A DNA stretch of 29,943 bases from a virus, in IMG/VR virus record IMGVR_UViG_3300007363_000071, positions 1 to 29,943 of that record; one strand, 5' to 3'. The stretch's first letter is position 1, and the number at the start of each line of letters is the position of its first letter. Positions 3,357 through 26,298 of the stretch are shown one piece after another. Made by a program: the position numbers and the translations under genes. The notes beneath the pieces are model-generated. The model saw only the letters and a program-made list of their open reading frames with translations. It did not search any database and was not told the origin of the DNA.

Positions 3357-4099
3357 GTTTGATTACCGCAACAGAAGGTCAAGATACTTCTAATGCTAAT
3401 GGTCAACAGACCGAGACTACAAATGTGGAAGGTCGCCCCGAATGGCTACCTGAGAAATTTTGGATTGAGGACAAGCCAAACTATGAACAGCTTGCCAAAT
3501 CCTATGGCGAACTTGAAACTCGCTTTCGGTCCAAAGAGGATGAACTGAAAGCAAAGTTGATTGATGAATTGGCAGCAGAAGCCTACAATAATCGACCGGA
3601 GTCCGCTGATCTCTATGCAATTCCTGACATTGAAGGCATCCAACCCGAGGAAGTTGCCAATCATCCTCTGACAAAATGGTGGTCAGAGTTTTCATTTGAA
3701 AATGGATTTGATCAGGAAACATTCCAGACTGGTATCCAGACCTATATTGAGTCAAAGATGGCAGAGATGCCAGACTATAATAAGGAAATGGAGAAACTTG
3801 GTGATAATGCTAAGGCTCGGACAGAAGCCATTGGTCTTTGGGTCGGTAAAAACTTTACTCCTGATGAGCAACGTTCTATCGAACGTATCTGTACGACTGC
3901 CGAAGGTGTTGCAACCATAGAGAAAATGATGAGTATGATTCGTGGGGAAGCTGGCACTGTCATCGATGCTGCTCCTGCTGATACATCTGAAGCCGATATA
4001 AAGAAGATGATGCAGGATCGACGCTATTGGCATCCTGCTGATCGTGATCCTACCTATATTTCCAAGGTCGAATCCTTCTTTAAGAAGAAATATGGCTAA
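3353..4099 (+). CDS. Capsid assembly scaffolding protein
   Basis: The 248-residue protein has the composition and position of a T7 gp9-type scaffold, which shapes the procapsid and leaves before maturation. The N-terminal quarter is disordered and polar (TATEGQDTSNANGQQTE). It is followed by the PEWLPEKFW segment (about residues 29-37) and YEQLAKSYGELE, a signature common in podophage scaffolds. A charged helical body follows, and the C-terminal end is basic (YISKVESFFKKKYG), as expected for a capsid-contacting helix. It overlaps the Bbp19-like gene by four bases and the acetyltransferase gene by three, implying coupled translation. Confidence 0.88.
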   Translation: MSLITATEGQDTSNANGQQTETTNVEGRPEWLPEKFWIEDKPNYEQLAKSYGELETRFRSKEDELKAKLIDELAAEAYNNRPESADLYAIPDIEGIQPEEVANHPLTKWWSEFSFENGFDQETFQTGIQTYIESKMAEMPDYNKEMEKLGDNAKARTEAIGLWVGKNFTPDEQRSIERICTTAEGVATIEKMMSMIRGEAGTVIDAAPADTSEADIKKMMQDRRYWHPADRDPTYISKVESFFKKKYG

Positions 4100-4569
4100 T
4101 GATTATCCGACAGATGGAGCCAGAAGATGTAATTGATTGCATCAATGCTGGTCGTGAGATGCATGGAGAGAGTTCCTATGCATCCACTCCATTTAGTGAA
4201 CGTAGTCTGTTGAGTCTCGCGCAGCAATGCCTTGATAATCCAGACTATGTTTGCTTTGTTGGGTATGAAGGCAGTGAGTTAATCGGGATGATGGTTGGTG
4301 TCAAAACACGATATTGGTTTTCTGATTCTGCTTCTTATGCTGCTGACCTTGCTTTCTATGTTCGCAAGGATTTCAGAGGGTCAACTTGTGCTATACGACT
4401 ATTACAAGCATTTCTGCGATGGGCCAAAGCCTCTGGATGTTTGGATATTCGCTGTGGTGTAACAACAGGAATTAATCCAGAAGTTGCTAGACGGCTCTAT
4501 GTTGAAGGATTTGGGTTCAAAGATAGTGGATCATTGTATACAATGAGAATAAGTCCATTGACTAGCTAA
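4099..4569 (+). CDS. GNAT-family N-acetyltransferase
   Basis: The 156-residue protein reads as a complete GNAT domain, transferring acetyl from acetyl-CoA to an unknown amine. It starts with the beta1 strand (MIIRQMEPEDV). The acetyl-CoA pyrophosphate loop is at about residues 88-102 (VRKDFRGSTCAIRLL, a form of the R-x-x-G-x-G/A motif). It ends with the usual Y-x-x-x-G-F segment (LYVEGFGFKDS). The start codon overlaps the scaffold stop. GNAT genes between scaffold and capsid recur in podophages. Modification of capsid, scaffold or a host protein is possible, but no substrate can be read from the sequence. Confidence 0.88.
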   Translation: MIIRQMEPEDVIDCINAGREMHGESSYASTPFSERSLLSLAQQCLDNPDYVCFVGYEGSELIGMMVGVKTRYWFSDSASYAADLAFYVRKDFRGSTCAIRLLQAFLRWAKASGCLDIRCGVTTGINPEVARRLYVEGFGFKDSGSLYTMRISPLTS

Positions 4570-9154: not shown

Positions 9155-12100
9155 ATGCCAATTCAGATTGATCCACAGCAGATTTCTGTTCAGCCTAGCG
9201 GTCGGTATATCCGTGAATTTAAGACGGATCTTCCTCGTCCTAACTTGAATGTTGGACAGATTGCAGAAGGAATTGGTCAGATTGCTGGCGAACAGTTGAC
9301 ACAAGAAGCAAAGATTGCTGGTCGTGAGGCTGGTCTAAATGTTCCTGTAATGAAGAATGCAGATGGCAAGTATGAGGCTCCTCCTCCACCGGAGACGTTT
9401 GGTGATACTGCTCGGCTTGCCTATAACACTGCGATTGAGCAGACCTATACAAACTCTGTGTATCGTGACGTTGAGCGTGGTCTCAATGAGATTGCAAATA
9501 AACCGAATACGCCGCCAGAGCAGCGTATTCAGCTGATGAACTCATTTATTGATACATCAATTAATAATGTTGATCCTAAATATAAGGGCCAACTTACTAT
9601 TATCCTTGGTCGTGAATTTAATCAGCGTCAGGCTTCTATTCTTAATCAGGCTCGTAGTGATGATGCGACTTATCGTACACATGCTCTTGCTGGTGACACA
9701 AAGAACTTTGTGAACAGTGCCATTGATGCATGGAGTGCTGGTGACTTTGAGGCTGGAAGCGCACATCTTGCTGAAGGTCGCCGTTCTTATGAGGCATCAA
9801 TTCGTCTCAAAACAACTGATGAGAATCTTATTGCTGACCAGATGCGTAAGTTTGATGAGCAAGCAAATGGGTTCCGTTGGTTCAATGAAGTTTATCAGAA
9901 GGTACGCGACGCTGCTCGTGACAAAACTGCCAATCCAGATGACATCAGCCGTCTTGCCAAGATGCTTCAAGAAGGAGCGCAGCCAACAGGTGCTACTGCC
10001 TTTGGCGTAGTAGACACAGACATCGTTAAGAATATGTCTCGTGAAGCCCGTATTCATATGCGGCAGATTGTCAGCACTCTTGATCAAGAATACTCCTCAC
10101 AGTTTGCTCAGAGCAATGAGGACCGCAAGGCTCAGGATCTTCATGATTTTCTGACTGCTGGCGGCACATTCAAGCCTGATACTTTTGGAGACAAGGATCT
10201 TGCCAATGCAAGTCGTAAGGCACTGGCTTCATCCAATCTCAGTCCATATAGTGCTGAAGGTGCAAAGGCTCTGGCATTTCAATTTAATGGTGTATTGCCG
10301 CATGAGATGTATAAGACATACTTCTCTGGCATCCATGAGAATGATGCTGGAACACCAGAAGGTGCGGCTCGTATCCGTGAGCGTCTTGATCTCTATCGCA
10401 CACTCAATGCGCTTCCTACTCGCTCTGGTATTCAAGACCGCACTGAGGTTATTGGTCAGACTGAGCGCAACTATCTGCGCGTTCTTGAGGATAAACTGCA
10501 AGCTGGATATGGTATTCAAGAAGCTGATCGTGCTGTAAAGGCTATCTTCAAACAGGCTGGCTCTTTGGATCAGGGTGCTATTACAAAGATGGTTCACTCT
10601 GCTTTTTCTGAAGCAAGTGGCAAGACTGGCCCTATCAGCCAGAAGGATGTTGTTGAGGGTGCTATAAATACTGTTACAACATTTCCTCTGTTTGGATCTC
10701 CAAGCTATGGAGAACTTCCAAAGACTGCCCGTGATCAGATTGAATCATCGATTGCTACTAGTGTGGCTCAAGGCATTAAATATGATCAGGCAGCAAAAGA
10801 TGCTGGTCGTGACTTTGCAAACAACTGGACCAAAAGCACTGATGTGATTGCTGGTCTTGTTGGTGGATCTACATGGATTCAAAAGAAAGATGATCTTCCT
10901 GCTGCCTATGATGCTTTGACTGGCAAAGGCACAAAGGATTATATCAAGCCATATGTTGACAAGATTCTTACTGAACGTCTTAACGATGCTCAGAAGTCCA
11001 TGCTTGGTGAACTGAAGTATGGTGATAACGTAAAACTGGAGCCTACCAATATTGGTGGTCCTAATCGTAGTTATTATCTTACCTATCACAAACCTGATGC
11101 TCTTGGTTTTCAGCGTCTTGTTGGTAAAGATGGTCAGCCATTGATGGTTATTCCTCAAGGCGCAAAAGATGCTTATGAGAAATATACTGCTGCTGAAAAT
11201 CAATACCGCACTATTACTGGAAACATTACCGGATCTGGCAATGTTATCCAATCAGATATTGGAGCCGTTACTCAAAAGCCTGTACAGAAAACTGCAATCA
11301 TTGCCACTGGCACAAATGATTGGGGCCTTCCTACTGGTCAGGTGATGGATAATGCTGTTGGTAACAACGTCAAACAGATGGTTGATCTTGCTCGTTCTCG
11401 TGGTCAGCAGCCAGTTATTGTGCTTCCAAATGGCAATGATCCTAAGTTTGCCAATGTCCGTGATTCTATTAAACGCGCCATTGATGACATTGGAGCCGAT
11501 AAAGTTACTGTCATTGAAGGCAAGTATGATCCAAAAGATCCTGCTCATCTAAGTGCTGCGTCTGTCAAAGAAATTACAGATCAGTATAAGGGTGCTATTG
11601 CATATGGCGATAGCAATGCTGTGCGCCTTGGAACAAAACTTGGTTATACAACCAAGATGGCTGAACATCGTGATGCTAATGGTAACGTGCAGAATCTCCA
11701 AAACCTTGTCGATGCAACGGGCAATGTAACTGCTCGTGTCTCAATGGGAACATCTGCTGTATATGATTTGATGAAGAATCATCCTGTTTCTATTGGCACA
11801 CTTGTTAATCCAGATCCAGTTAACAAGCCTCAACTGAACATTGATCTCAAGCATGTAGATCCATTGCCATCAACTAATGTAATGCTTGGTCGTATGAGGT
11901 CTCAGCCAAACATGACTGAGGACAAAAAAAAATTGCTTGATGCAATCGGTGCAAAAGTCAGTGAGTATAATCTTGATGATCATACTGCTTATATTCTAAA
12001 AACGATTGGCATTGAGTCCCAGATGAATCCCAATGCCAAAAATCCCAATAGCAGTGCCTATGGGCTTGGTCAGTTTACTGATTCGACTTGGAATCAGTAT

Positions 12101-12427
12101 GGGCGTGGTGATCGTAAAGATCCTATTGCCCAGATTGATGCCTTCATGCGCTTTACTCAGGACAATATCCAGTCCTTTGAACGTGCGTATAGTCGAAAGC
12201 CTAACTCTGGTGAACTCTATTTGATGCATCAACAGGGTGCTGCTGGCGCGATTGCTCTGCTGAATAACCCTAATGATAATGCTATGAGTGTTCTTCAGCG
12301 TGTTGTTAAGAGCAGAGAGATGGCAGTTAACTCAATCTATCTTAATGTGCCGACAGATGCTCGCGCTTATGCTGGTAGTCTTACTGCAAAGCAATTCACT
12401 GACATTTGGATGAATAGGTTCAACTAA
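9155..12427 (+). CDS. Internal virion (ejection) protein with permuted SGNH-like and SLT transglycosylase domains
   Basis: The 1090-residue protein belongs with the ejected core proteins (T7 gp15/gp16 group). Residues 1-690 are long, helical and polar. Residues about 712-880 contain the four landmark blocks of SGNH/GDSL hydrolases in an unusual order: GTND (block III, N721), DPAHL (block V, D795 and H798), YGDSNAVRLG (block I, Ser820) and VSMGTSAVYDLM (block II, G865). Residues about 935-1065 are an SLT lytic transglycosylase: IGIESQMNPNAKN with probable catalytic E954, then AYGLGQF and YLMHQQGAAGA. The likely role is local peptidoglycan opening during DNA entry. In T7 the transglycosylase sits in gp16 instead. 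The next gene overlaps the stop by one base. Confidence 0.88.
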   Translation: MPIQIDPQQISVQPSGRYIREFKTDLPRPNLNVGQIAEGIGQIAGEQLTQEAKIAGREAGLNVPVMKNADGKYEAPPPPETFGDTARLAYNTAIEQTYTNSVYRDVERGLNEIANKPNTPPEQRIQLMNSFIDTSINNVDPKYKGQLTIILGREFNQRQASILNQARSDDATYRTHALAGDTKNFVNSAIDAWSAGDFEAGSAHLAEGRRSYEASIRLKTTDENLIADQMRKFDEQANGFRWFNEVYQKVRDAARDKTANPDDISRLAKMLQEGAQPTGATAFGVVDTDIVKNMSREARIHMRQIVSTLDQEYSSQFAQSNEDRKAQDLHDFLTAGGTFKPDTFGDKDLANASRKALASSNLSPYSAEGAKALAFQFNGVLPHEMYKTYFSGIHENDAGTPEGAARIRERLDLYRTLNALPTRSGIQDRTEVIGQTERNYLRVLEDKLQAGYGIQEADRAVKAIFKQAGSLDQGAITKMVHSAFSEASGKTGPISQKDVVEGAINTVTTFPLFGSPSYGELPKTARDQIESSIATSVAQGIKYDQAAKDAGRDFANNWTKSTDVIAGLVGGSTWIQKKDDLPAAYDALTGKGTKDYIKPYVDKILTERLNDAQKSMLGELKYGDNVKLEPTNIGGPNRSYYLTYHKPDALGFQRLVGKDGQPLMVIPQGAKDAYEKYTAAENQYRTITGNITGSGNVIQSDIGAVTQKPVQKTAIIATGTNDWGLPTGQVMDNAVGNNVKQMVDLARSRGQQPVIVLPNGNDPKFANVRDSIKRAIDDIGADKVTVIEGKYDPKDPAHLSAASVKEITDQYKGAIAYGDSNAVRLGTKLGYTTKMAEHRDANGNVQNLQNLVDATGNVTARVSMGTSAVYDLMKNHPVSIGTLVNPDPVNKPQLNIDLKHVDPLPSTNVMLGRMRSQPNMTEDKKKLLDAIGAKVSEYNLDDHTAYILKTIGIESQMNPNAKNPNSSAYGLGQFTDSTWNQYGRGDRKDPIAQIDAFMRFTQDNIQSFERAYSRKPNSGELYLMHQQGAAGAIALLNNPNDNAMSVLQRVVKSREMAVNSIYLNVPTDARAYAGSLTAKQFTDIWMNRFN

Positions 12428-15400
12428 TGGAAATAACTCCGGAACTTACTGCTGAACTTCAGAAGCCAGCCAATGAACAGTTTGGTGGTCAATTAACTAC
12501 GCCAGCACCTACGCCACTTCCATATCTTCCTCCTGAAAAGCAGGGCATTGCTGGTAACTTTGTAGACATTATGACTCGCAGCTCGACTGCAAGTTTTCTG
12601 CAATGGCAGCATGACCAGATTTACAATCAAGCAGATCCAAGTTTTAACCTTGGTCAATATCTTGATGAGAATCCTGACCGCAAACCATATGCTCATATTT
12701 TTGCTGATGCAGAGAACGCTACCTATGCCGATAGTCGGTGGGAACGGTTTAAGGCAAACGAAGCAGCAGACAAACGCATCAATGATAGCGAGGCGTTCTG
12801 GTCTCGCATGGCTACCGAAGCACTGACTGATCCAATTAATCTTGTTCCCGGACTTTCTATGCGTCGAGGCGTTGGAATCATTGAAGGTGTGATTCGTGGC
12901 GGTGGATCTGCATTGCCATCTATTGCTGTTGATCAACTTATCAAAGTTAAATACGATCCTAACTTTACGCTTGATGATGCCAAACATGAAATGATCTATG
13001 GCACACTATTGTTTGGGGCTCTTGGTGGAGCAATCGGTATGCTTCGTCCTAATCGTGGAGTAGAGGTTCTTGCAAAAAACATGGCTACTGAGGCCCGTCG
13101 ATTGACTGGAGATACGATTGACCCTGCAAAACCAGTAGATCCCCTTAAACCCGATTCTTCTGTTACCATTCTGCACAGCACTCCGCATGATGCAAATGGT
13201 AGCTATCGTCCATTTGAGGTCAAAGAAACTGGAGATACTCCAACTGGATATGCTTCTGCTTACGGTCTTGAAAAGATTGCAGCACAGCAAAGTCCATTTG
13301 CCCGTCTTGTAAACAGCGGTTATCGTGTTATGGAAGATTTGGCTAATCGTCTTGCTGGCGACTATGGCACTATGTTCAAGCGCAACCAGATTGGAGAAGC
13401 AACAGAACCATCTGCCTATCTTGCGTCTGAAGGCTGGCGCGTTATGGCTGGTGATGTGATTGCAGAACTACGCCGCATCCATGCTGCCTATCTGACTGAA
13501 GGCTTACAGAGCGCAGAAGTGGCTGGAATTAATATCCGAAGCACAATGGCTGGCATTGCAGATACTGGTCGCAAAGCCTTTGGTATGGCTCGTCCTGATG
13601 GCAAGATGCGCTTTGATCAATTTCTTGATGAAGTGTTTAAGGCTCATAAGGCAGATAGTCTTTCTCATAATAACAAGTATGTGCTTGAGGCTGCAAAGGC
13701 AGTGCGTCCATTCTTTGATGACATTCTTGGCGCACAGCTTCGCTCTGGCTATATTCGTAATGCTGAATGGGCAAGCCGCAGCAAAGCCACATTGATTGCA
13801 GAACGAGTACGTGTGCTTGAGGAAGTGCGGATTCTTGAAAAAAATCAATCTCCGACTGCAAACGAAAGCGCATTAATTCAGCATCAACGTGACCACATTA
13901 AGAAGCTGGATGAAGAACTCAATCGCCTTGATGAACTACTTGGCAAAACAGAAAACGCTCCGTTGACTGTCGGTGAAAAAATGGATGTTGGCGTAACAGG
14001 TGTTGCTGGAATTGAACGTCCAAAGATGCCAGTGCCAAGCAATGAAAACTTTTCTAAATTTACAGGGCCAGAAAAGTTTTATCTTCCTCGTATATTTATC
14101 CCTGAGCAGGTCGCTGCAAAGGAAGCTGAACTTCGCAAGATGATGACGGATTGGTATCTGAATCCAGAGAACAATCCTAATGGCGTTCCTATGCCAGAGA
14201 AGATCAAAGAACGTGTTGATGCAGAAATCAATGCAATGATGCAACAGACTGTGACTGGTGAACGCGCACCAGAAGGTGGTCTTGGTCGTGCGTTTTTTAC
14301 TCGTCAACGCACCAATGAAATCCCCAATGAAATGTATGCTGCTCTTGGTGTAATTGATACTGACATTGCTCATGTCATCCAGATGTATGCTCATCGTGCT
14401 GGTATCGGCATTGAGTATACCCGTGCCTTTGGTAGCCCTGATGGTGAACTGGCATTGTCTCGTGCTCTTGCTCAGGTTGCCCGTGAAAGCAAAGGCAAAA
14501 CAGCAGAGCAGATCTTGAATGAAATGCAGAACCTCCGTGATGAGTTTGCCAACCTTCGTGATGGTATGCTTGGCACTGCGTTCAACAATCCTGATGCTAT
14601 TGGAAAACGTGAAGCTAGCATCATGAAGGCTTGGTTTGCATTGACATCAATGGGTCGTGCAATCTTTTCGTCTCTTGGCGAGACCGTGCGTCCAATGTGG
14701 GTGCTTGGTGTAAAGGAAAACTTCTCTTTTGCGCTTAATGCTCTTGGCAACACAGACGTAATTAAGAAGGGCATTGCTGAACAGCGCACAATGGCTGCTG
14801 ACTTTTTTGAACTTGCAATGGGCCTTACGCATCGTCGTCAAATGGAAGGCGGTGTTGACGCAGGGTTTAGTCTGAACAAATACAATCAGGCTCTTGATCA
14901 GATTGAACGTCCCCTTAGTTTCCTTTCCCGTGCGCCACTCTATGTAATGAACGGTGTCGGTATCCTGACGCATATCCAAAAGGCATATACTGGATTGGTT
15001 GCCTCACATATCTTGATTCGTAACATCAAGAATGTGGCTGAAGGAATCCATACGCCAAAGGAACTGGAGTTTCTTGCTAGCTACGGTATTTCTGCTGATG
15101 ATGCAAAGCTGATGGCAAAGATGCCAATTGAGACTGATCGAGGTATCAATTTTGCTAACACGGCAAATTGGTCTGATCGTGATCTTGCCCGTAAATTCTA
15201 TGACTCTGTAACTGGTATTCAGCGTCGAGTAATTAATACTGCTGGTCCTGCTGACAAGCCAGCAATCATGATGGGTATTCTTGGCAAAGGTGCTGATCGT
15301 AAAGATGCTGCGCTTTTGTCCGTTCCATTCCAACTTCGCACTTGGAGCATGGCTGCAACAAACAAGATCTTGCTGTCTGGGTTGCAAGGCCGTGATGCCA

Positions 15401-15840
15401 GCTTTATGTCTGGCGCATTAATGATGATTGGCGCATCCTATCTTATGATGGATCTCAAGACTCCAGATAAGGTTTGGAAAGATATGGGCATGGATGAGCG
15501 TATCTTGTCGGCACTGGAACATTCTGGTGTGTTTGGTTGGTATGGTGATATGAACCATACGCTTGAACAACTGACTCAAGACAAATTTGGTATTCGTCCT
15601 GCTATGGGTATGAAGCCCAAGTTTGGTCAGATGTCAGATGAATACACAACTGCTGGTGAATTGCTTGGTCCCGCACCCACCAAGATGATGGATCTTTATA
15701 AGGCATTTACTAGTCCAAGTTCAACAAGCCGAGATCGATCTCGTGCTATTGTTAATTCTATCCCGTTTAACAATATGTTTTGGATACCGCAGACATGGCG
15801 TAAGATGGCAATGCAGGGCGTTGAGCAAATAGTCCATTGA
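12427..15840 (+). CDS. Large internal virion protein (T7 gp16-like position, no transglycosylase seen)
   Basis: The 1137-residue protein is almost entirely helical and polar with few recognisable motifs, as expected for the large ejected core protein that spans the periplasm. A hydrophobic glycine-rich stretch around residues 193-210 (YGTLLFGALGGAIGML) and another near the C-terminus (GALMMIGASYLMMDL) could contact membrane. A charged coiled-coil-like segment lies around residues 455-520 (LIAERVRVLEEVRILEKN, then DHIKKLDEELNRLDELL). I see no SLT motif here; that activity is in the preceding gene. Start ATG 12427 overlaps the upstream stop by one base. Confidence 0.82.
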   Translation: MEITPELTAELQKPANEQFGGQLTTPAPTPLPYLPPEKQGIAGNFVDIMTRSSTASFLQWQHDQIYNQADPSFNLGQYLDENPDRKPYAHIFADAENATYADSRWERFKANEAADKRINDSEAFWSRMATEALTDPINLVPGLSMRRGVGIIEGVIRGGGSALPSIAVDQLIKVKYDPNFTLDDAKHEMIYGTLLFGALGGAIGMLRPNRGVEVLAKNMATEARRLTGDTIDPAKPVDPLKPDSSVTILHSTPHDANGSYRPFEVKETGDTPTGYASAYGLEKIAAQQSPFARLVNSGYRVMEDLANRLAGDYGTMFKRNQIGEATEPSAYLASEGWRVMAGDVIAELRRIHAAYLTEGLQSAEVAGINIRSTMAGIADTGRKAFGMARPDGKMRFDQFLDEVFKAHKADSLSHNNKYVLEAAKAVRPFFDDILGAQLRSGYIRNAEWASRSKATLIAERVRVLEEVRILEKNQSPTANESALIQHQRDHIKKLDEELNRLDELLGKTENAPLTVGEKMDVGVTGVAGIERPKMPVPSNENFSKFTGPEKFYLPRIFIPEQVAAKEAELRKMMTDWYLNPENNPNGVPMPEKIKERVDAEINAMMQQTVTGERAPEGGLGRAFFTRQRTNEIPNEMYAALGVIDTDIAHVIQMYAHRAGIGIEYTRAFGSPDGELALSRALAQVARESKGKTAEQILNEMQNLRDEFANLRDGMLGTAFNNPDAIGKREASIMKAWFALTSMGRAIFSSLGETVRPMWVLGVKENFSFALNALGNTDVIKKGIAEQRTMAADFFELAMGLTHRRQMEGGVDAGFSLNKYNQALDQIERPLSFLSRAPLYVMNGVGILTHIQKAYTGLVASHILIRNIKNVAEGIHTPKELEFLASYGISADDAKLMAKMPIETDRGINFANTANWSDRDLARKFYDSVTGIQRRVINTAGPADKPAIMMGILGKGADRKDAALLSVPFQLRTWSMAATNKILLSGLQGRDASFMSGALMMIGASYLMMDLKTPDKVWKDMGMDERILSALEHSGVFGWYGDMNHTLEQLTQDKFGIRPAMGMKPKFGQMSDEYTTAGELLGPAPTKMMDLYKAFTSPSSTSRDRSRAIVNSIPFNNMFWIPQTWRKMAMQGVEQIVH

Positions 15841-19629: not shown

Positions 19630-20169
19630 ATGGACTTAGCAAAGATCGGTGGCCTTTTGGCCCAAGTCGCTCCGACAATAGCGACAGCCATTGGTGGTCC
19701 ACTCGCAGGAATGGCAGTAAAGACTCTCTCCTCTGCTCTGCTTGGGCATCAAGATGGGACGGGAACAGAGGTGGAAGCAGCCATACTCAATGCAACGCCA
19801 GATCAGTTAGCCAAGATCAAGGAACTGGATGCCAGCTTCAAACTCAAGATGAAAGAACTTGAGATTGACCTTGAAAAAATCTCGGCACTGGATCGTGACT
19901 CAGCCCGAAAGATGCAGATTGAGACCAAGGATTGGCTCCCTCGTGCGCTGGCTGTCCTTGTTACCGTAGGATTCTTTGGCATCCTTGTTTGGCTACTCGT
20001 CCGTGGTGCGCCTCCGTCTGGATCAGAAACCCTGATATACATGCTAGGATCATTAGGAACGGCGTGGACAGGCATTATCCAGTTTTATTACGGATCATCC
20101 GCCGGATCAAAACAAAAGACTGACGCGCTTTCTATGAAGGAAGGATCACAAGATGCAGTTCGTAGGTGA
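19630..20169 (+). CDS. Three-TM holin
   Basis: The 179-residue protein matches the 3-TM holin family first named in gene transfer agents. It has a hydrophobic N-terminal part (IGGLLAQVAPTIATAIGGPLAG), a charged central region (about residues 55-98, with ELDASFKLKMKELEIDLEK) and two close membrane spans (about 104-125, ALAVLVTVGFFGILVWLLV, and 136-155, LIYMLGSLGTAWTGIIQF). It would form lesions in the inner membrane and time lysis. It overlaps the endolysin by 17 bases and directly follows another membrane protein. Confidence 0.8.
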   Translation: MDLAKIGGLLAQVAPTIATAIGGPLAGMAVKTLSSALLGHQDGTGTEVEAAILNATPDQLAKIKELDASFKLKMKELEIDLEKISALDRDSARKMQIETKDWLPRALAVLVTVGFFGILVWLLVRGAPPSGSETLIYMLGSLGTAWTGIIQFYYGSSAGSKQKTDALSMKEGSQDAVRR

Positions 20170-20746
20170 TGCAGAGAAGTTAACAACTGACGAGCTCGAG
20201 CAGATTGCTCATGATTTTTGTATTGAGCCAGCAGCACTACGGGCAGTCATCCGTGTCGAGTCATCCGGAAGCGGGTTCGATGCAATGGGTCGTCCCAAGA
20301 TTCTGTTCGAGCGTCATTTCTTTTACCGCCATCTGATTGATACGCCGAACTTGCTTGCTCAGGCTGAGCAACTTGGCATTGCCTATCGTCGGTGGGGCGA
20401 GAAGCCATATCCAAAGTCATCGTCAGGCGTGTATCAGGAGCTTGAGGCAGCTATAAACATTGACGAGGAAGCCGCGCTGCTCTCTACATCTTGGGGTATG
20501 GGGCAGATTATGGGCGAGAACTTCCGCCTTGTTGACTGCAAGAGCGTTTATGAAATGGTTGACGAGGCCAAGGTTAGCGAGCGCAACCAGATCATTCAAA
20601 TGTGCCACTACATTCATAACACAGGATTGATGGACGAGTTACAGAACCATGACTGGGCTGGCTTTGCTCGGCATTATAATGGCCCTCAATACACCAAGAA
20701 CAATTATGATACGAAACTGGCTGACGCATACAAGGAATACGCATAA
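20153..20746 (+). CDS. Endolysin, N-acetylmuramidase (DUF3380) family
   Basis: At 197 residues this is a single catalytic domain of the family that hydrolyses the MurNAc-GlcNAc bond. The diagnostic segment is RVESSGSGFDAMGRPKILFE (about residues 34-53), with probable catalytic E36, followed by RHFFYRHL. The middle has STSWGMGQIMG, and the end has ARHYNGPQYTKNNYDTKLADAY, all typical. AAGGAT upstream of ATG 20153 gives the start. No signal peptide is evident, so export would rely on the holin. It overlaps the holin gene and the phosphoesterase gene. Confidence 0.92.
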   Translation: MQFVGDAEKLTTDELEQIAHDFCIEPAALRAVIRVESSGSGFDAMGRPKILFERHFFYRHLIDTPNLLAQAEQLGIAYRRWGEKPYPKSSSGVYQELEAAINIDEEAALLSTSWGMGQIMGENFRLVDCKSVYEMVDEAKVSERNQIIQMCHYIHNTGLMDELQNHDWAGFARHYNGPQYTKNNYDTKLADAYKEYA

Positions 20747-25015: not shown

Positions 25016-25438
25016 TTAACTCCTTATAAAACTAATTGACTCAAGTTCTTCCATGATGCGCTTCAATGCAAACTGAACAATCTCCAATTCTTCCATTAGT
25101 TCCTTGCACTTTAGTTTGTCGATCCTCAAAATAATATCCTTTGAGTATCTGTCCATGATTAACTTGTATGCCTTGTCAAAGTGTTCTGCGTGTAAACAAT
25201 TTGGATCTTTCTCAATTAGTGCCTTGCTCTTTCTCAACGCAACAAACACAGTCGAGTGGTCTATTCCTAATGATCTTGCAATCCTTGATTTGTTAATCGA
25301 CACAATCTCATACGAAAGATGTATTACAAGAGCACGAGCATATGATGTTGCTCGATCTCTTTTGGAAGAGAATATATCTTTTATATCGGCGGATGTAACT
25401 TCATGCACAATTTCTGCAATATTCTTAACGGTTATCAT
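25016..25438 (-). CDS. Second DnaA domain IV-like DNA-binding protein
   Basis: In the 140-residue protein, residues about 17-77 (TSADIKDIFSSKRDRATSYA, then ALVIHLSYEIVSINKSRIAR and SLGIDHSTVFVALRKSKAL) follow DnaA domain IV. IDHSTV stands in the place of the recognition phrase GGRDHTTV. The C-terminal 60 residues form a charged helix (KELMEELEIVQFALKRIMEEL). No ATPase domain is present. ATG 25438 overlaps the upstream stop (ATGA). It probably binds DnaA-box-like DNA; whether it acts on the phage origin or the host oriC cannot be told. Confidence 0.75.
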   Translation of the reverse strand: MITVKNIAEIVHEVTSADIKDIFSSKRDRATSYARALVIHLSYEIVSINKSRIARSLGIDHSTVFVALRKSKALIEKDPNCLHAEHFDKAYKLIMDRYSKDIILRIDKLKCKELMEELEIVQFALKRIMEELESISFIRS

Positions 25439-26298
25439 GCGGCATTCCTTTTTCTATCACTGAAGGCAGAGATATATTCTGCTGCCTTACTTGCTTTGGA
25501 TGCAGCACTGACAACTGCGCTACTATTTTCTTTTAAGATCTTCAGCCAAGAACTGAGGTATTTGGCATGGTCGTCACGCACATGGTTGCTGATGCCAAGA
25601 TCTGCCGATAGGAACGCAGCACCCAACTCTGCAACCAGTTCCTCATATGCGTATGCATCACTGCCAAACTTTGTATTCAACTCACGGTCGAGTCTGCTCT
25701 TTGCACCAGTCCAATGGACCAACTCATGGAATGTGGTCGAATAGAAATGCTCTGCCGTATAGAACGTATTGATGTCTGGCATGAGAATCTTATCATTCGA
25801 TGGAATGTAACAGGCTCGCTCACCACCATATGTAATCTCTGCATTTGTTGCCTTGATGAAATCTTCGATCTCAATACTGCGTTCATTCTCGCCTTCGCTA
25901 CTTGACGGCTTCGGCTCCAATGCCCGCTCACCATCCACTTGGTTTGCATTGAACACATATGATGTTGAGGCAAAGACAATATCGCGTGTTGTTCCATCCT
26001 CTTGCTCTTTGTTGGTCACGTTGTAACGAATGATCGGCGTTCCCTTTTCTCCCTTGCGAACCTTGCAATCCATCTGCTGCCATTGTTTGAACGTTGCCCA
26101 TCGTGTTGATGCATAGCCATTGTTGATGCTGCTGGCCCAACACATGAGGATGTTCGAGCCATTGTATCTTTGCAATGTCAGTGCATTTGTCGGTGTCTTG
26201 AACCCTGTCTTGCGCCAAGGTGGAGTCCATTGCCCTGCATCGTCGATCATATTGATAAGTGTGTTTGTAATCTGCTGGTATGGATTCATCTTTTCCAT
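25435..26298 (-). CDS. ArdC-like protein: ssDNA-binding domain plus zincin metallopeptidase
   Basis: The 287-residue protein has the two-domain layout of ArdC antirestriction proteins. Residues about 1-130 are the N-terminal DNA-binding domain (PWRKTGFKTPTNALT, YNGSNILMCWAS, ASTRWATFKQWQQM, VRKGEKGTPIIRY). Residues about 150-280 are the zincin-like domain with FHELVHWTG (H191, E192, H195) and a following acidic ligand region YEELVAELGAAFL. ArdC of plasmid pSa protects incoming ssDNA from restriction. Here it sits beside SSB and ERF, consistent with protection of early DNA. AGGAGA before ATG 26298 gives the start. Confidence 0.88.
   Translation of the reverse strand: MEKMNPYQQITNTLINMIDDAGQWTPPWRKTGFKTPTNALTLQRYNGSNILMCWASSINNGYASTRWATFKQWQQMDCKVRKGEKGTPIIRYNVTNKEQEDGTTRDIVFASTSYVFNANQVDGERALEPKPSSSEGENERSIEIEDFIKATNAEITYGGERACYIPSNDKILMPDINTFYTAEHFYSTTFHELVHWTGAKSRLDRELNTKFGSDAYAYEELVAELGAAFLSADLGISNHVRDDHAKYLSSWLKILKENSSAVVSAASKASKAAEYISAFSDRKRNAA

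Follow-up and report, generated by a model that had tools for sequence, protein, structure and literature searches.

The 1,090-residue ejection protein encoded in the window (the whole 29,943-nucleotide stretch of DNA that we analyzed, an IMG/VR virus fragment) contains a domain that very probably adopts the SGNH hydrolase fold in circularly permuted form. The domain spans residues 709-878 (positions 11279..11788; all features lie on the plus strand unless otherwise indicated) and is recognized through Pfam similarity, a predicted structure, a rotated profile and residue conservation. Its motif blocks run III-V-I-II (N-H-S-G by their key residues), and the linear order I-II-III-V does not occur in the protein. 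Our best overall explanation, to which we assign a probability of about 0.68, is that a permuted SGNH esterase eases the action of an SLT transglycosylase on the cell wall.

The source virus is a marine-type phage with a structural block ordered as in T7: head-tail connector, scaffold, tail tubular protein B, a gp14-like gene, the ejection protein, a protein at the gp16 position and a tail fibre. For tail tubular protein B, Pelagibacter phage EXVC031P Hodr is the closest isolate (43%). The ejection protein (9155..12427) occupies the position of T7 gp15, and the genes upstream of it match the T7_gp14 and tail tubular protein families. Its core (residues 1-685, 9155..11209) shares 72-81% identity across four homologues and is followed by a variable linker (residues 686-708, 11210..11278), with 33-41% identity among the homologues and a pLDDT of about 39 at the start of our model. 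After the permuted domain comes an SLT lytic transglycosylase (residues 923-1090, 11921..12424; Pfam SLT E-value 1.7e-5, 24.8 bits against a cut-off of 21.3). The next ejection protein, at the gp16 position (12427..15840), matches the virion structural protein family phrog_684 and phrog_16310, and a Pfam search returned no SLT match in it. Three other genes of the window deserve mention. A GNAT acetyltransferase (4099-4569; PF00583, E-value 1.9e-9) lies directly 3' of the capsid assembly (scaffold) gene, within the structural block, which is an unusual location for an enzyme. An N-acetylmuramidase (20153-20746; PF11860, E-value 2.8e-56), distinct from the virion SLT, is probably the lysis enzyme. 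Finally, an ArdC-like protein composed of ArdcN and an MPTase-PolyVal metallopeptidase (25435-26298, minus strand) is a candidate anti-restriction factor.

A sequence-only reading of this DNA had proposed four SGNH motifs in the order III-V-I-II, and all of them are present at the positions it gave within the 9155-12427 open reading frame. Block III is GTND (residues 719-722, with N721; 11309..11320), coming immediately after strand beta3 in the model and invariant in all five podovirus members. Block V is DPAHL (residues 795-799, with D795 and H798; 11537..11551), whose D and H are also invariant in 5/5 and align with the canonical DGxH in the rotated profile. Block I is GDSN (residues 818-821; 11606..11617), with S820 as the proposed nucleophile, and the canonical GDS aligns with it only after rotation. 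A strand pair is inserted between blocks I and II (residues ~832-852, 11648..11710; modelled as strands 832-839 and 845-852), and nine residues of this insert are absent in three homologues (L001, L019 and L087). The putative block II, SMGTS (residues 863-867; 11741..11755), follows beta2 and precedes alpha2 in the model and is the weakest of the motifs. Here the earlier proposal holds for the position, since SMGTSAVY does start at residue 863, and G865 is softer than it implied, being replaced by Asn in one of the five aligned podovirus members (L002) and missed by every profile.

The close homologues of the window protein are four independent viral contigs (L001, L002, L019 and L087) with 66-80% identity over the domain. 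N721, D722, D795, H798, G818, D819, S820 and N821 are invariant in the window protein and in all four, as is E954 of the SLT domain (5/5). Loss of the catalytic residues in homologues, which had been named as evidence against an SGNH assignment, was therefore looked for in N721, D795, H798 and S820 and was not found. The segment comprising the insert and block II is 50-64% identical within the same clade. The III-V-I-II order exceeds chance, because the N, D, H and S motif residues are invariant in the four homologues and the N/H/S order recurs in distant proteins (L026/L047 and L023, described below).

Similarity to the SGNH family is detectable with standard profiles. Lipase_GDSL_2 (PF13472) matches residues 679-781 with a library-wide E-value of 8.5e-5 and a score of 23.6 bits, below the curated gathering cut-off of 32.9. 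Such a low score is expected if the domain is permuted, because only half of the profile can then align in order. The same similarity is found in three podovirus members, the window protein and two homologues (E-values from 8.5e-5 to 1.3e-4 against the whole library). When the two halves were compared separately with the Pfam profile, the III-V half aligned to positions about 64-143, and the I-II half gave no match, block II remaining unseen. We then compared by hhalign a canonical SGNH profile, built from eight proteins of bacterial genomes, with a profile of seven intact members of the phage family (podoviruses, L026 and L023). In native order the score was 34.7 over 101 columns (probability 68), and it rose to 42.2 over 110 columns (probability 89) when the canonical profile was rotated to begin at strand 3. 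The rotated alignment brings GTND, DxxH (canonical DGxH) and GDS into register. None of 100 controls with shuffled block I/II columns reached 42.2. With a podovirus-only profile, rotation increased the score from 30.1 to 34.8, a value reached by one of 100 shuffled controls. Any cut placed from block I to beta3 gives the gain. Cutting between blocks III and V, as in AlgX, yields a score lower than that of the native order.

The predicted structure agrees with this arrangement. An AlphaFold2 model built from 13 sequences of the window and viral contigs (model residue i corresponds to protein residue i+700) has a mean pLDDT of 81.3 and a pTM of 0.78, with residues 711-870 mostly between 83 and 95. 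Its first half consists of a strand (713-717), GTND, a helix (729-748), a strand (752-756), a helix (763-779), a strand (785-787) and DPAHL; the second half of a helix (801-810), a strand (815-818), a helix (820-828), the strand pair (832-852), a strand (858-861), SMGT and a helix (866-875). S820 is thus the first residue of helix 820-828, after beta1. The order of elements, beta3-a-beta4-a-beta5-a-beta1-a-hairpin-beta2-a, indicates that the alternation of strands and helices between the blocks is kept, as the sequence-only reading had claimed. In the model, this is the SGNH series beta3, beta4, beta5, beta1, beta2, with the motifs at the expected strand ends. In a sequential, order-dependent Foldseek search of the PDB nothing scored better than 0.001, and the 50 best matches included no SGNH entry; we therefore do not base the SGNH identity on a structural match. 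The sole significant viral match was a protein of phage ACG-2014d (an independent BFVD model; E-value 1e-5), and phage GDSL or SGNH proteins appeared as weak partial matches at ranks 16 and 11. Taken together, the Pfam similarity, the rotated profile, the predicted order of secondary structure and the conservation of N, D, H and S support the circular permutation that had been proposed.

More distant members of the family were located by pattern and profile. Some Kyanoviridae proteins annotated as 'endolysins' carry the same permuted order, and two of them (L026 and L047) retain N, H and S in GTND, YTHIL and GDSN. L023, an unrelated phage protein, has MGSND, GGYHL and FGDSLG in the same order. 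Neither L026 nor L023 has an Asp three residues ahead of the His. L026 matches the podoviruses with a tblastn E-value of 1e-10 (among candidates), and L023 matches phage S-SSM4 with an E-value of 2e-4 (whole phage collection). A second model, made for L023 and of moderate confidence (pLDDT 69.6), served only as support. Since MAFFT misplaces block II between groups, we make no claim based on the cross-group alignment there. In S-SSM4, ACG-2014d and their relatives, the Ser (changed to K or Q), the His and often the Asn are lost. Such kyanophage copies (L004, L008, L017, L029, L031 and L034) keep the permuted fold order; they are SGNH domains that have decayed or been repurposed, and the domain can therefore survive the loss of catalysis. 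The L023 protein (L023:5386-8319, 978 residues) combines a lysozyme-like part (phrog_90), the permuted SGNH with its GDSL and, further along the chain, the sequence HxSHxxGxEFDI, which may recall M15 peptidases; it possibly holds several wall enzymes in a single chain. No podovirus-type relative was found in named phage isolates by tblastn with the domain alone, and no bacterial relative in an alignment-based scan of bacterial genomes. Several candidates were discarded. A scan of bacterial genomes with the pattern YKGAxVxGDS returned unrelated proteins only; profile A3, run over 385 genomes of one class, gave a single 19-bit match, a cysteine synthase, rejected as chance; and weak tblastn matches in Gordonia and Mycobacterium phages (H1, H5 and H9) lay on the strand opposite to the annotated gene or in an unrelated primase.

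The permuted domain behaves as an add-on. In the protein that Pelagibacter phage Hodr carries at the same position (783 residues), no significant match to the domain profile is detectable. L026 was matched by 327 phage records, 51 of which extend over at least 80% of its length; many others among the matches listed align solely with the sequence flanking the domain. A murein hydrolase adjoins the domain in all three groups: the SLT lies C-terminal of it in the podoviruses, and a lysozyme-like region follows it in the kyanophages and precedes it in L023. The ejection protein gp46 of phage RHEph01 also bears an SLT, which shares 53% identity with that of the window across 104 residues. In RHEph01 gp46, as in T7 gp16, the SLT opens the gp16-type protein, whereas in the window it ends the upstream gp15-type protein and is preceded by the SGNH domain. 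The SLT has switched sides of the gene boundary between the start of the gp16-type protein of RHEph01 (L113:3941-7714) and the end of the gp15-type protein of the window (9155-12427).

In the rearrangement that we propose, a short turn would join the usual last helix, after DxxH, to the usual first strand, that of GDS, and the new chain ends would lie between blocks II and III, with N-H-S-G as the resulting order. We infer that S820, H798, D795 and N721 converge in one active site, where S820 would attack the ester, H798 and D795 would activate S820, and N721 together with the backbone of blocks I and II would hold the oxyanion. With these residues conserved, the domain is probably an active esterase. 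The module would have been added, together with the SLT transglycosylase, to the C-terminal end of the ejection protein. O-acetylation of MurNAc blocks lytic transglycosylases, which need a free C6 hydroxyl to form 1,6-anhydroMurNAc, and an esterase would therefore aid the SLT. This block is established for Ape1-type esterases. Because the domain is fused to a lytic transglycosylase, removal of O-acetyl groups from MurNAc is the activity that suggests itself; it would open a path for the SLT next to it while the protein passes through the periplasm. The sequence-only reading had likewise proposed a deacetylase acting in concert with the SLT, a function with which the surrounding domains agree. 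With the substrate deduced in this way, we put the chance that the domain is a peptidoglycan O-acetyl esterase just short of even.

The decayed kyanophage copies are the reason why we keep a binding or structural role as the main rival. On this view, the permuted SGNH would bind carbohydrate or act as a spacer, having lost hydrolysis completely or nearly so, and would position the transglycosylase on the wall. Those relatives do keep the fold order without Ser, His and often Asn, and an SGNH protein without activity is known in Oskar (PMC2848206). However, N721, D795, H798 and S820 are invariant in a podovirus clade in which the insert and block II are only 50-64% identical, and L026 and L023 likewise keep N, H and S; we consider this role unlikely for the window protein. 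We judge similarly improbable an active esterase directed at another polymer, such as an O-acetylated surface polysaccharide, LPS or lipid. Tailspike esterases of phages deacetylate surface polymers, and SGNH enzymes hydrolyze many carbohydrate and lipid esters (PMC9487903), yet an ejected internal protein with an SLT next to the domain, and with lysozyme-like neighbours elsewhere, points to the wall rather than to the receptor surface.

The remaining alternatives question the fold itself. A generic Rossmann-like alpha/beta domain with coincidental GTND, DxxH and GDS finds support in the scattered alpha/beta folds without significance among the PDB matches and in the 19-bit false match of profile A3 to a cysteine synthase. 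Against it, the rotated profile puts all motifs in register, the GDSL match of 8.5e-5 holds over the whole library, and N, H and S recur in three distant groups, which leaves this explanation with a small probability. Smaller still, to the point of being very improbable, is that of two half-domains completing each other between chains in a domain-swapped oligomer in place of a closed single-chain permutant. Ejection proteins are multimeric, for example in T7, and tandem duplication with loss of the outer halves, which yields permutants, may pass through such a state, but the single chain already gives a confident, compact model (pTM 0.78).

Ape1-type O-acetylpeptidoglycan esterases are separate bacterial enzymes with the canonical order and the SGNH mechanism, proposed to act before lytic transglycosylases. 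We liken the phage domain to them by mechanism and proposed role. With the canonical SGNH proteins (PF13472; TesA, SpOatA-C), it shares GxND, DxxH and GDS, the similarity of the III-V half and the predicted alternation of strands and helices; it differs in being N-H-S-G instead of S-G-N-H, in scoring below the curated cut-off and in its weak block II. Circularly permuted SGNH domains are known in the O-acetyltransferases AlgX, AlgJ, WssI and DHHW/PatB1 (PMC4148444, PMC9487903, PMC10302187). Like the phage domain, these have block V before block I. They are, however, opened between III and V, show H-S-G-N(Y/D) or close variants and carry DxH together with GTSYS or KDS motifs, whereas the phage domain is opened between II and III, starts with GTND and retains the canonical GxND, DxxH and GDS. 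In addition, the AlgX-type proteins are cell-envelope acetyltransferases, while the domain of the window sits in a phage virion protein. The literature searched, from which most subscription papers are absent, yielded no description of an SGNH domain ordered N-H-S-G, nor of any phage with a permuted one.

In its widest and most tentative form, which we hold to be possible though somewhat less than an even prospect, the interpretation would be that of a phage-specific SGNH family, not recognized before, with a new N-H-S-G permutation. As a cassette, it would travel among virion proteins that are unrelated to one another, in podoviruses as well as in T4-like cyanophages, with a murein hydrolase beside it every time. 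Carried in the virion, it would act as an O-acetyl-peptidoglycan esterase and overcome O-acetylation of the wall while the genome enters. Since order-dependent profile and structure searches miss permuted domains, more of them may sit unannotated in phage structural proteins. If our reading is true, this would be the second natural circular permutation of the SGNH fold, with an opening point unlike that of the AlgX type, and would make the tolerance of the fold to rewiring testable. A virion esterase wired to a wall-cutting enzyme would also offer a direct test of wall O-acetylation as a barrier to phage entry.
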